A DNA stretch of 33,851 bases. Source: Rubrobacter sp. (GTDB taxonomy: Bacteria > Chloroflexota > Chloroflexia > Thermobaculales > Thermobaculaceae). Below the pieces are notes generated by a model, which ran no database searches, was not told the DNA's origin, and saw only the letters and a list, made by a program, of their open reading frames with translations. Below, in pieces: positions 11,556 to 15,563 of this stretch. The translations under genes and the position numbers were made by a program. The stretch spans positions 1 to 33,851 of the forward strand of contig JADDPP010000322.1 in assembly GCA_016781845.1 (NCBI GenBank), given 5' to 3'. Position 1 is the stretch's first letter, and every line of letters starts with the position of its first letter.

Positions 11556-12827
11556 TTGAAATACATATACCCGTTGCTAGCTCTGGTGCCCATAGCGTTT
11601 GTGCTCGAATATCTCGTTCACGCGTCGCCGGTTGTCATCTTCATGGTATCCGCGCTCGCGCTCATACCGCTCGCGGCGGTGCTGGGCAAGGCTACGGAGG
11701 AGATAGCGGTCCATACCGGGCCGCGGATTGGTGGTCTGCTGAACGCTACCCTCGGAAACGCGGCGGAGCTGATTATCACGATAGTCGCGCTGAATGCCGG
11801 GCTCTATACACTGGTCAAAGCCTCCATCATTGGCTCGATTCTCGGCAACATCCTCGTCGTCCTTGGCGCGAGCCTGTTGCTGGGGGGATTGAAGAATGGC
11901 ATACAGAGGTTCGACCGGGCGGAGGCGGGCGTGGTGGCCTCCCTGATGATGCTCTCGGTTATCGCGATGGCTGTGCCGACGGCGTTCGCTAGGACGATTG
12001 AGGAGGCAAGCCTAGTGACGCTGAGCGACGAGGTCGCCGCGATTATGCTGCTCCTGTACCTGGCTTACCTGGCGTACAGTTTCTTCAGCAGCCCGAATGC
12101 CGAGCCCGCTGCCCACGGGTCGGCGGCGGGGGAGACGCCGCGTGTGTCTCCCGACCTTGTAGACGCGGGGCGAGGCGCTGCTACGTCTTCAACAGCCGCT
12201 CCGGCCCAGGCGGCGCGTCTCTCCGGCAGCAACACTACCTCAACCACCATCACCACGTCTTCCTCGCGTGGAGGCTCCAGCTCTGCTGGCCCAGGCGCGC
12301 CGACCGCATCTCATGCTCCCGCGCAGGGTGGACATGGCGGTCACGCAGGGGGGCATGAGGCTGCGTGGAGCGTACCTGTAGCTCTCGGGGTCCTGGTGGT
12401 GTCAACGCTCGCAATAGTGTTTATGAGCGAGTTCATAGTCGGCGCTGTCGAGCACGTAACAGAGAGTCTGGGGTGGACGGAGTTCTTCCTCGGTATCATC
12501 ATCATCCCACTCGTCGGCAACGTGGCAGAGCACATCGTTGGCGTCCAGGTGGCGTACAAGAATCAGATGGACCTGAGCCTTGCTATCTCCCTGGGCAGCA
12601 GTCTTCAGATCGCCCTCTTCGTCGCACCCGTGCTCGTGTTCGTCAGCCTGTTTGTGGGCCCCAGACCCATGGACCTCGTGTTCAACACGTTCGAGATGAT
12701 CGCGCTCATCGCTGCCGTGGTTGTGGGAGCATTCGTCAGTCTGGACGGCGAGAGCAACTGGCTGGAAGGCGCGCTGCTACTGGGTGTGTACCTGATATTG
12801 GGCTTCGCGTTCTTCTACGTGGGTTGA
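11556..12827 (+). CDS. CaCA-family cation/proton antiporter (Cax-like) with long low-complexity loop
   Basis: Membrane protein of 423 residues, probably exporting Ca2+ or another divalent cation in exchange for protons. The two alpha repeats are visible: GGLLNATLGNAAELIITIVAL in the first half and PLVGNVAEHIVGVQVA in the second, each with the metal-coordinating glutamate. About 11 hydrophobic segments are present. Between the halves, about residues 187-268, lies a linker rich in Ser, Thr, Ala and Gly that ends in a histidine cluster (GGHGGHAGGHE), where eukaryotic and bacterial CAX proteins usually carry an acidic stretch. TTG start preceded by AGGGGA. The stop overlaps the pyrE start by one base, so it is probably co-transcribed with pyrE. 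Confidence 0.85.
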   Translation: MKYIYPLLALVPIAFVLEYLVHASPVVIFMVSALALIPLAAVLGKATEEIAVHTGPRIGGLLNATLGNAAELIITIVALNAGLYTLVKASIIGSILGNILVVLGASLLLGGLKNGIQRFDRAEAGVVASLMMLSVIAMAVPTAFARTIEEASLVTLSDEVAAIMLLLYLAYLAYSFFSSPNAEPAAHGSAAGETPRVSPDLVDAGRGAATSSTAAPAQAARLSGSNTTSTTITTSSSRGGSSSAGPGAPTASHAPAQGGHGGHAGGHEAAWSVPVALGVLVVSTLAIVFMSEFIVGAVEHVTESLGWTEFFLGIIIIPLVGNVAEHIVGVQVAYKNQMDLSLAISLGSSLQIALFVAPVLVFVSLFVGPRPMDLVFNTFEMIALIAAVVVGAFVSLDGESNWLEGALLLGVYLILGFAFFYVG

Positions 12828-13411
12828 TGAGCGACGCTGAGAGGTTGCTGGCGGAGGCGGGAGCCGTCCTGCACGGGCACTTCCTGCTGTCCAGCGGGCT
12901 GCACAGCCCAACGTACGTGGAGAAGTTCGAGCTGATACAGCACCCCCATGTAACTGTACCGATCTGCGGGCAGATAGCGGATCACTACGGCGACGCGGAG
13001 GCGCAGACGGTCGCCGGGCCGACTACGGGCGGCGCGATACTCGCTTTCGAGGTGGCAAGGCAGCTGGGGCTTCGGTGCATAATCGCGGAGCAGTCGGCCG
13101 ACGGTGGACGAGAGTTCCGGCGCGGGTTCAGGATAGAGCCGGGAGAGCGGGTGCTGGTGGTGGACGACGTGATGACGACGGGAGGTTCCGTGCGACACAC
13201 CGTCGCGGCGGTGGAGCGGCTGGGCGGCGTCGTGGTAGGTGCAGGGCTCCTGGTGGACCGCTCGGGCGGCACGGCGGAGGCCGGAACGGCGTACTGGGCA
13301 GCGCTGACGCTCGATGCTGCGGCATATCAGCCGCAAGAGTGTCCGCAGTGCGCGCAGGGAGTGCCGATTACGAAGAGGGGAACGTCGGGGACTGCTCCGC
13401 GTCGATGGTGA
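12827..13411 (+). CDS. pyrE: Orotate phosphoribosyltransferase
   Basis: Joins orotate and PRPP to give OMP. The 194-residue protein has the substrate-binding start (HFLLSSGLHSPTYVEKF), AGPTTGGAILA, and the PRPP motif RVLVVDDVMTTGGSV; the tail CPQCAQGVPITKRGT is typical of one bacterial PyrE subgroup. The start is ATG at 12827, overlapping the antiporter stop by one base. The frame is open upstream but overlaps the antiporter. No pyrF is found next to it or elsewhere in the window. A small GC hairpin (CTGCC-tgcg-GGCAG, 13414-13427) without a T-run follows the stop. Confidence 0.94.
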   Translation: MSDAERLLAEAGAVLHGHFLLSSGLHSPTYVEKFELIQHPHVTVPICGQIADHYGDAEAQTVAGPTTGGAILAFEVARQLGLRCIIAEQSADGGREFRRGFRIEPGERVLVVDDVMTTGGSVRHTVAAVERLGGVVVGAGLLVDRSGGTAEAGTAYWAALTLDAAAYQPQECPQCAQGVPITKRGTSGTAPRRW

Positions 13412-13820: not shown

Positions 13821-15563
13821 GTGTCCGCTGACGCACGGCTGCTCGCGACCGCCGAGAGACTGCTGGCTGGGGGGCCGCTTGCCGAGGAGGAGCTTGCGCG
13901 GGGGCTGTACGGGGTAGCAGGCCCCGTCGGGCCGTGGCTGCGTCTGCTCGATTCGCTGCTTGGGGGGAGTGAGGGGTTTGGCCGCCTGCCCGACGGACGG
14001 TGGGCGCTGCTGCGTGGAGAGGTTAGCGCCCCGCAGCAGCCGCTGTTGATGGCGGGGCGGAGTACCAGGGCGCGTGGCGGGAGACTTCGGGAGCTCGCGC
14101 TCACGGGGGCTGATGCGCCGCGACCGGTTTTCAGGTGGAGGTTCGACACCCGGCCCATAACCCCGGAGACCTTGATGCAGCCCGACCCTCTGGATGGCGA
14201 GGAGGCCTACGTACGCTTCGAGGACGTGGCGGAAGAGGTCGTAGAACTGATACAGGGGCGTGAGCTGCTCACGCTCGATGATGCGCTGTTCTCCGTGCTG
14301 TCCCACGAGCTTCAGCTGTGCGGAATGCCCCCGCTGGGTAACACGGTCCGCATCCTGGGTCGGGATCTGTGGCTTCAGGGCGGCAGCAAGCGCTCGTTGG
14401 AGGCTGTGCGCGCGTCGCTCGGGCTGGTGTCCGCCATGTCCGACACCTTGCTCGGCGAGGTGGAAGTTCTCAGAGGCCTGCACGACAGCCCGAGTGGCGC
14501 ACGCATTGCGCCGGGAACTGCAAGAAACCGGACTCGGTTGCGGGAGCGCCTGAGGGCTGTGGCGTCCTCCATGCCGGAGGGTCCCGGCGTGTATGTGTTT
14601 CGCGACGCTGCGGACTCCGCGTCGTACATAGGGTCCGCCTCGAACCTCAGGCGGCGCGTGCTCTCCTACTTCAGCGAGCAGATAGAGCTGACGCGCGGGC
14701 TGAGGGGTTTGCTGTCGAGCGCGGCCCGGCTCGACCACGTCCTGCTCGGGACACACCTCGAGGCTCTTCTGGAAGAGGCTGAGCTTATCCATAACTTGCA
14801 GCCCCCCTACAACGTGCAGCGGAAAGTCTCGGCGCGGGCGGCGTGGTGGCTGCGTGTAGGCTCAGAGCATCCGGTAAACGTGGTCCAGGTCGCATCCGCG
14901 CCACGGGAGGATGGAGCGCTCTATGTTGGTCCACTCCCAACCCGTGCCACAGCCGATGCCGCAGCCGGGGCGCTGGCTGGCCTGTGGGGGTTGAGCCGCC
15001 GGGGCGGGAGCGCCCAGACGTGTGATGAGTCGCGGGCCAGGCTGGAGGAGCTGAAGGTGCTGCTCGCGGACCCAGAGAGGTTCTGCGGCGAGATGCGCGC
15101 GAGGCTGCACGCGATGGCAGCGCGCATGCCCACCCGCAAGTGGTCCGTGCTGGCATCCCACGTCGAGCGCACAGAGCGCGCGGCGCTGGGTGGAGAGCTG
15201 GCGCCCGCGGCTTCGGAGAGTGGGAACAGGGTTGTTGCCCGGTACGACGAGACGGGCGGGTGGCTATATCTGCTGCTCGTCCGCGACCTGGGATGCGTCG
15301 CTTGCGCTCGTGTCAGCGCCTTCGACGAGTCGGGGCTGGCGGAGGGTTTGAGGTCGCTGCTTGCGGTCGCGTCCGAGGGCGGTGAGCAAACGCCTGAGAG
15401 AATCGCCCTCACAGCGCGCTGGTTGCACTCGCACCGTGACGACGAGTGGGTGTTGGCTCTGGATGACACGCCGGACGCACTCGCATGGAGACTGATCGAG
15501 GGTGTGCGCCGGAGGCTGGAGGAGCGGACCAGCCCTAAGGAGGCATTGGAGGAGTCATGGTGA
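13821..15563 (+). CDS. GIY-YIG nuclease fused to a degenerate DnaQ-type exonuclease domain
   Basis: A 580-residue protein. Residues 1-67 look like a winged-helix region. Residues about 68-225 align by eye with DEDDh (DnaQ/epsilon) exonucleases: STRARGGRLRELALTGAD for the first motif, GRELLTLDDALF for the second (normally LVAHNAxFD), and VSAMSDTLLGEVEVL for the third (normally HRALxDA). The leading DxE, the FD aspartate and the catalytic histidine appear lost. Residues 250-335 form a UvrC-like GIY-YIG domain with GVYVF, SYIGSASNLRRRV (R277-R279), a glutamate near 319 and PPYNV, so this nuclease may be active. The rest resembles the segment after the nuclease in UvrC-like fusions. Related exonuclease-GIY-YIG fusions are known in actinobacteria. 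GTG start; DNA repair role is inferred. Confidence 0.7.
   Translation: MSADARLLATAERLLAGGPLAEEELARGLYGVAGPVGPWLRLLDSLLGGSEGFGRLPDGRWALLRGEVSAPQQPLLMAGRSTRARGGRLRELALTGADAPRPVFRWRFDTRPITPETLMQPDPLDGEEAYVRFEDVAEEVVELIQGRELLTLDDALFSVLSHELQLCGMPPLGNTVRILGRDLWLQGGSKRSLEAVRASLGLVSAMSDTLLGEVEVLRGLHDSPSGARIAPGTARNRTRLRERLRAVASSMPEGPGVYVFRDAADSASYIGSASNLRRRVLSYFSEQIELTRGLRGLLSSAARLDHVLLGTHLEALLEEAELIHNLQPPYNVQRKVSARAAWWLRVGSEHPVNVVQVASAPREDGALYVGPLPTRATADAAAGALAGLWGLSRRGGSAQTCDESRARLEELKVLLADPERFCGEMRARLHAMAARMPTRKWSVLASHVERTERAALGGELAPAASESGNRVVARYDETGGWLYLLLVRDLGCVACARVSAFDESGLAEGLRSLLAVASEGGEQTPERIALTARWLHSHRDDEWVLALDDTPDALAWRLIEGVRRRLEERTSPKEALEESW

Follow-up and report, generated by a model that had tools for sequence, protein, structure and literature searches.

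A GIY-YIG nuclease of Thermobaculaceae joined to a DnaQ-like domain that lacks its catalytic residues

The gene and its GIY-YIG nuclease

The window, by which we mean the whole stretch of 33,851 nucleotides that was analysed, holds an open frame on the forward strand at 13821-15563. It begins with GTG, ends with TGA and encodes a product of 580 amino acids; in the orthologues a start codon is available at the alignment position of this GTG. The features of the gene are as follows.

13821-15563, + strand: whole gene, 580 amino acids, consisting of winged-helix-like, pseudo-DnaQ, GIY-YIG and C-terminal regions
13821-14018, + strand: winged-helix-like N-terminus, residues 1-66, common to the intact Chloroflexota relatives (alignment)
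14034-14489, + strand: DnaQ-like domain without catalytic residues, residues 72-223 (profile match, shuffles, predicted model, fold match, site residues)
14055-14087, + strand: GRxTRAxxGRL motif at the former Exo I (DxETTG), residues 79-89 (alignment of six family members)
14550-14840, + strand: GIY-YIG nuclease domain, residues 244-340, with Y258, Y269, R279, E319 and N331 (Pfam, NCBIfam and PDB matches, predicted model)
14841-15005, + strand: conserved 'GPL/GPF' region after the GIY-YIG domain, residues 341-395 (alignment, lowest dN)
15006-15560, + strand: C-terminal region, residues 396-580, with no recognisable UVR motif and a WLxxHRxD segment conserved in the family

The first 66 residues are modelled, at a pLDDT of 58, as helices 3-16, 22-30 and 37-48 and strands 53-55 and 61-63. 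It is from this pattern of helices and strands, not from a family match, that we name the region a putative winged helix.

Database searches recognise mainly the nuclease half. The sole Pfam match of the window protein is GIY-YIG, which scores below its cut-off (19.5 against 22.6 bits), and no exonuclease family is matched; the intact relative L009 is matched by RNase_T at 1.1e-34. The best NCBIfam matches are the PRK07883 models ('DEDD exonuclease domain-containing protein', best stretch 236-544), although all 15 NCBIfam matches lie below their cut-offs and PRK07883 far below. The PDB sequence search returned six UvrC GIY-YIG chains at 241-335, and beyond these chains nothing under E 0.6.

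Indeed the GIY-YIG site is intact, as had been supposed from the sequence: Y258, Y269, R279, E319 and N331 do not vary among the six family members. The lysine that follows YIG in UvrC-type proteins is serine (S272) in all six, and other residues also occur at this position elsewhere. The 'GPL/GPF' region has the lowest dN of five protein regions in ten Thermobaculaceae family pairs.

What the sequence-only reading overlooked is the state of the remaining UvrC-type features. The four cysteines that in most relatives come after the 'GPL/GPF' region are all missing from the window protein (0/4); in E. coli UvrC such cysteines reportedly hold an iron-sulphur cluster. No UVR motif was matched by Pfam at E values up to 5 and our own profile gave E 4.1, a result that a diverged motif could escape; L009 has a Pfam UVR match at 1.7e-8. 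The second, RNase H-type, nuclease domain of UvrC (PF08459) has no Pfam match in the window protein either. Without the cysteines and with no recognisable motif for docking to UvrB, the window protein may well function in another way than UvrC or Cho.

The former exonuclease

According to the sequence-only reading, the region ahead of the nuclease keeps the fold-level pattern of DnaQ while the DxE, the aspartate of Exo II and the catalytic histidine are lost. A profile of residues 72-223 from the six family members was compared with a profile of 23 intact relatives, and they match at E 5.7e-7 (probability 92%, 118 columns); the best of 100 column-shuffled profiles reached E 0.03. This comparison argues firmly for homology between the exonuclease-like region and DnaQ-type exonucleases.

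The predicted structure points the same way. A first model, for which four family sequences were the only input, was of poor quality (pLDDT 58) and was kept out of the fold search. The second covers residues 72-392 at a pLDDT of 78.5 and was made from 12 input sequences, 8 of which are homologues with intact motifs. In two input alignments Exo I or strand 2 was wrongly placed relative to the actinobacterial sequences, and smaller sets were used instead. Because the set was picked for aligning those segments as in the alignment with intact Chloroflexota relatives, the fold result leans on the choice of alignment and on the intact homologues. With this model Foldseek found the UvrC GIY-YIG domain 1yd6 (E 3.9e-7) and DNA polymerase III epsilon (E 9.4e-5). 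Superposition on epsilon and UvrC, as had been suggested, agreed: in VIA-align the exonuclease part aligns with 2gui at Z 14.6 over 144 residues and 3.1 A, and the GIY-YIG part with UvrC 1yd5 at Z 15.3. In the predicted model, then, residues 72-223 take a DnaQ-type fold. Neither a model lacking that fold nor a surviving acidic metal site, the two outcomes that the sequence-only reading had named as speaking against it, was seen.

The loss of the catalytic residues goes further than had been supposed. By alignment, none of the five DEDDh residues is present in the window protein or in any of the six family copies. Compared with the 23 intact Chloroflexota relatives, DxETTG has become GRxTRA, the Exo II aspartate is lost, and the Exo III segment (HRALxDA, with the histidine and an aspartate) is deleted, so that the Exo III aspartate is gone as well. 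With Exo I turned basic and the Exo III segment deleted, the known two-metal site cannot form. In place of Exo I stand eight residues that are invariant in all six family members (G79, R80, T82, R83, A84, G87, R88 and L89).

We also considered whether the dead domain as a whole has turned basic, and this idea is unsupported. The mean net charge of the whole domain is -3.7 in the six family members, +0.8 in 17 other loci that are dead or keep three of the five residues, and -0.9 in 104 intact loci; the basic strand is the former Exo I only, with a mean of +3.8 in the family against -0.3 in intact relatives. The slightly negative overall charge does not favour simple DNA binding.

Despite its lost site, the dead domain is under purifying selection. 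The ratio of dN in the exonuclease region to dN in the GIY-YIG domain has a median of 1.90 in the family (range 1.53-2.07; 10 pairs of five members, the member at 32% identity left out) and of 1.87 in intact relatives (range 0.90-5.14; 225 pairs). Measured against the GIY-YIG domain, the dead region thus changes no faster than live exonucleases do; relative to the C-terminal region its dN ratio in the family is 1.00. In three pairs of genus g2, omega is 0.20-0.35 for the dead region and 0.22-0.28 for the whole protein, and for the window against L005 the whole protein gives 0.45. Absolute constraint on the whole protein is looser in the family than in intact relatives: omega of the dead region is 0.20-0.55 in family pairs against 0.04-0.48 for the exonuclease in the intact pairs listed, and omega of the GIY-YIG domain is 0.11-0.45 (family pairs where computable) against 0.01-0.13 (intact pairs listed), with dS saturated in many of these comparisons.

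Taken together, the fold, the lost catalytic residues and the purifying selection make a non-catalytic role beside the GIY-YIG nuclease reasonable. The sequence-only reading, which saw the exonuclease turned into a DNA-binding or structural module for a UvrC-like nuclease, is thereby supported in part, DNA binding being no more than a candidate role of the module; the term 'UvrC-like' applies only in a limited sense, given the missing cysteines and the unrecognisable UVR motif.

Relatives, descent and losses across Chloroflexota

A search of 61 genomes with the window protein gave some match in every one, and 30 loci were decoded from it: the window gene, its family counterparts or exonuclease-GIY-YIG proteins. 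Within Thermobaculaceae, full-length counterparts occur in four genomes at 46-49% identity (L002-L005) and in a fifth at 32% (L006), which with the window makes six copies among seven family genomes. The seventh (G004, 78% complete) has a single match, to a UvrC-type region. The dead exonuclease site, the missing cysteines, the unrecognisable UVR motif and the kept GIY-YIG residues are common to all six copies. In the family genomes a GIY-YIG profile matches window-type and UvrC-type proteins only, hence these assemblies show no exonuclease-GIY-YIG protein that is intact. Each of the seven has one match to the exonuclease family PF00929, in a frame of 966-1009 amino acids; a second match in G002 lies in a frame 1,800 amino acids long. 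UvrB is present in all seven (the frame in G005 is short, 151 amino acids), as is a protein with the second nuclease domain of UvrC; the single PF08459 match of the source genome lies on a contig other than that of the window. With UvrB and a UvrC that has its second nuclease domain in each of them, excision repair in these genomes need not depend on the window protein.

A pyrE-like gene (12827-13411 in the window, named by eye) adjoins the nuclease gene in all six family members, and a gene of this kind is also found near a dead copy in G007 and near an intact copy in G046. In our opinion the common N-terminal region and this gene order speak for descent from a Chloroflexota exonuclease-GIY-YIG gene. 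Trees are less straightforward. One built from the GIY-YIG domain only groups the family with Actinomycetota proteins (support 99/90); one built without the exonuclease columns, which contains no actinobacterial rows, places it among Chloroflexota, at the end of a long branch and close to unresolved forks. The actinobacterial placement may be due to long-branch attraction, or to exchange or transfer of the GIY-YIG domain.

Two further observations concern the neighbourhood. The pyrE-like gene lies beside or near the nuclease gene in distant Chloroflexota (the window; L123-L127, L131, L133), and a CaxA-like cation exchanger, also named by eye, precedes it in five of the six family members.

For a wider survey, a profile of live and dead members was run against 400 Chloroflexota genomes at E values up to 1e-40, and all counts that follow are among the matches listed. 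To these were added the 30 loci of the 61-genome search, L122 and fetched regions. The survey covers matches that reach into the exonuclease part; GIY-YIG-only matches were taken for UvrC, and for this reason dead copies that match weakly or are heavily eroded may have escaped it. From 161 loci, 6 without exonuclease coverage were removed (leaving 155) and then 25 duplicates, which gave 130, a set in which the family of the window is over-represented. Contig ends cut 2 of the 130, hence 128 were scored for the exonuclease.

All five exonuclease residues are kept in 104 of the 128 loci, four in 1 and three in 1; one residue is left in 6 loci and none in 16. These last 22, which we call dead, are spread over eight families (f1, f2, f38, f52, f60, f62, f64 and f68). 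The GIY-YIG Tyr, Tyr, Arg, Glu and Asn are kept in 129/129 loci uncut there, which suggests that GIY-YIG is the indispensable half of the protein. On the best tree, a quick one from which the exonuclease columns were left out, the dead copies make up four groups, and parsimony with regain allowed requires at least 3 changes. A single clade of dead copies is rejected (p-AU 0.00047; the 23 loci that are dead or keep three of five residues against 40 of the 104 intact, these 40 rows having been hand-picked after the larger tree was known). The exonuclease was therefore lost more than once in Chloroflexota; the exact number of losses is unsure because of the long branches and the quick tree.

The UVR profile matches 70 of the 104 intact loci (23/23 of those used in building it and 47/81 of the others) and 0 of the 22 dead ones, and it may miss diverged motifs; the remaining 34 intact loci are likewise without a match. 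The exonuclease and UVR losses provide only 2-3 independent pairs, so that a link between them cannot be significant and is without statistical support. That loss of the four cysteines is coupled to that of the exonuclease is unsupported, since they are kept in 8 of the 23 loci that are dead or keep three residues and are missing in 29 of the 104 intact ones. In these 29 the UVR match is absent too, which indicates that a protein can lose the cysteine motif and UvrB docking and still retain its exonuclease; L144, L149, L217, L225, L232 and others (f23, f33, f35) have a complete exonuclease site but neither the four cysteines nor a UVR match.

An intact second copy is present in at least 7 of the 23 genomes with a copy that is dead or keeps three residues: G007 (L018 and L122), G119, G147, G203, G252, G259 and G266. 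These second copies cluster in the tree, and those among the matches listed align only from profile positions 68-78 and so are without most of the winged-helix-like region. Partly eroded sites are also seen, with DEGHD in L213 (G133) and DEEHG in L230 (G263) instead of DEDHD; these are possibly intermediates of loss, or possibly misaligned residues.

Possible role and comparison with known nucleases

The ancestor, we suggest, would have been a repair nuclease of the 'Cho-like+Exo' kind, with an N-terminal DnaQ-type exonuclease before a UvrC-type GIY-YIG domain. In Thermobaculaceae the exonuclease site and the four-cysteine motif would then have been lost and the UvrB-binding motif changed beyond recognition, with the GIY-YIG site kept. 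The present protein is most probably a GIY-YIG endonuclease that incises DNA once and needs no UvrB, and its winged-helix-like region and former exonuclease could serve as non-catalytic modules that position it on the substrate or hold it together. Since the known chemistry leaves no exonuclease step open to it and no UvrB handle is recognisable, we take it to be a UvrB-free GIY-YIG nickase in which the old exonuclease fold probably serves as a module that is passive or reads the substrate; we would put this somewhat ahead of even chances. The nicking activity, the UvrB independence and the positioning role of the former exonuclease are what we infer from sequences and models, and we know of no activity for any member with a dead exonuclease.

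It could be argued that the former exonuclease is an inert scaffold, kept for the packing of neighbouring domains and without any recognition of substrate. Its constraint is about that of the C-terminal region, as the dN ratio of 1.00 indicates, and it has no overall basic charge. However, the GRxTRAxxGRL motif places eight invariant residues at the former active-site strand in six of six members, which seems more than packing needs, and we hold a mere scaffold to be possible yet clearly less probable than a nickase with a substrate-reading or passive module. Rather unlikely, in our opinion, is a third role, that of a surface to which a helicase, polymerase or clamp binds and which recruits the nickase in place of the UvrB contact. 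Epsilon-type exonucleases are known docking subunits, and with no UVR match in any dead copy a new route of recruitment would be needed; on the other hand, the gene neighbours, inspected by eye, point to no partner.

Two further explanations have little credit with us. The exonuclease might still be active through catalytic residues that have moved, and indeed D153 and E163, near the former Exo II, are invariant in all six copies. Yet Exo I has turned basic, its segment has no invariant acidic residue and the Exo III segment is deleted, which makes a moved site very improbable. Least credible of all is that the gene is decaying and has no function. The protein has lost three ancestral motifs and is less constrained than its intact relatives, but the frame is open in six of six copies down to 32% identity, the overall omega in the three g2 pairs is 0.22-0.28, and the GIY-YIG site is invariant.

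If the preferred reading of a UvrB-independent nickase is extended to the phylum, we may speculate, and this is no more than tentative, that in Chloroflexota the exonuclease was switched off repeatedly, after or together with the loss of the UvrB motif, to give UvrB-independent nickases, and that the GRxTRAxxGRL pocket of Thermobaculaceae is a sensor (of a DNA 3' end or a nucleotide, for example) that licenses the nick. The available part of PMC1564403 reports a proposal that GIY-YIG incises first and that, starting at this nick, the exonuclease degrades the strand with the damage. The repeated loss of the exonuclease is a natural separation of these two activities, proposed there as sequential in one protein. 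The live and dead pairs, some of them within one genome, are material for asking what a DnaQ fold does without catalysis, and the question is open to experiment, given that Thermobaculum terrenum is a cultivated organism according to the available part of PMC3035366.

A search of titles and abstract openings, with subscription journals mostly outside it, found no description of a dead exonuclease in such fusions. Among known proteins, the window protein resembles the UvrC N-terminal domain in its GIY-YIG fold and in its Tyr, Tyr, Arg, Glu and Asn residues, but it differs from UvrC in having no match to the RNase H-type domain or the UVR motif and no four-cysteine motif, and its host has a separate UvrC. 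With E. coli Cho it shares a GIY-YIG domain without a second nuclease domain (the PRK10545 match at 241-357 is below its cut-off); unlike the window protein, Cho lacks a domain of the exonuclease type and carries a distinct C-terminal domain, as described in the available part of PMC1564403. The exonuclease part resembles E. coli DNA polymerase III epsilon (DnaQ) in the fold of the predicted model (Z 14.6), although it has none of the DEDDh residues and its Exo III segment is deleted. The same holds for DEDDh 3'-5' exonucleases in general, whose DnaQ-type fold is found in the predicted model and whose D-E-D-H-D residues are absent.

The closest likeness is to the Cho-like+Exo GIY-YIG nucleases, probably the same group as PRK07883. 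As far as the available part of PMC1564403 (Dunin-Horkawicz et al. 2006) describes them, they have the same order of a DnaQ-type N-terminus (called 'ExoIII' there), a UvrC-type GIY-YIG domain and a UvrC-like C-terminal part. The window protein has the DnaQ-type N-terminus, by sequence profiles and predicted model, and the UvrC-type GIY-YIG domain with its Tyr, Tyr, Arg, Glu and Asn. Three features of that group are absent from it, an active exonuclease (0/5 residues), the four cysteines (0/4) and a recognisable UVR motif, and it has in addition the winged-helix-like N-terminus. Judged by its sequence, and with the cysteines and a recognisable UVR motif gone, it may best be described as a Cho-like+Exo nuclease whose exonuclease has been retired.
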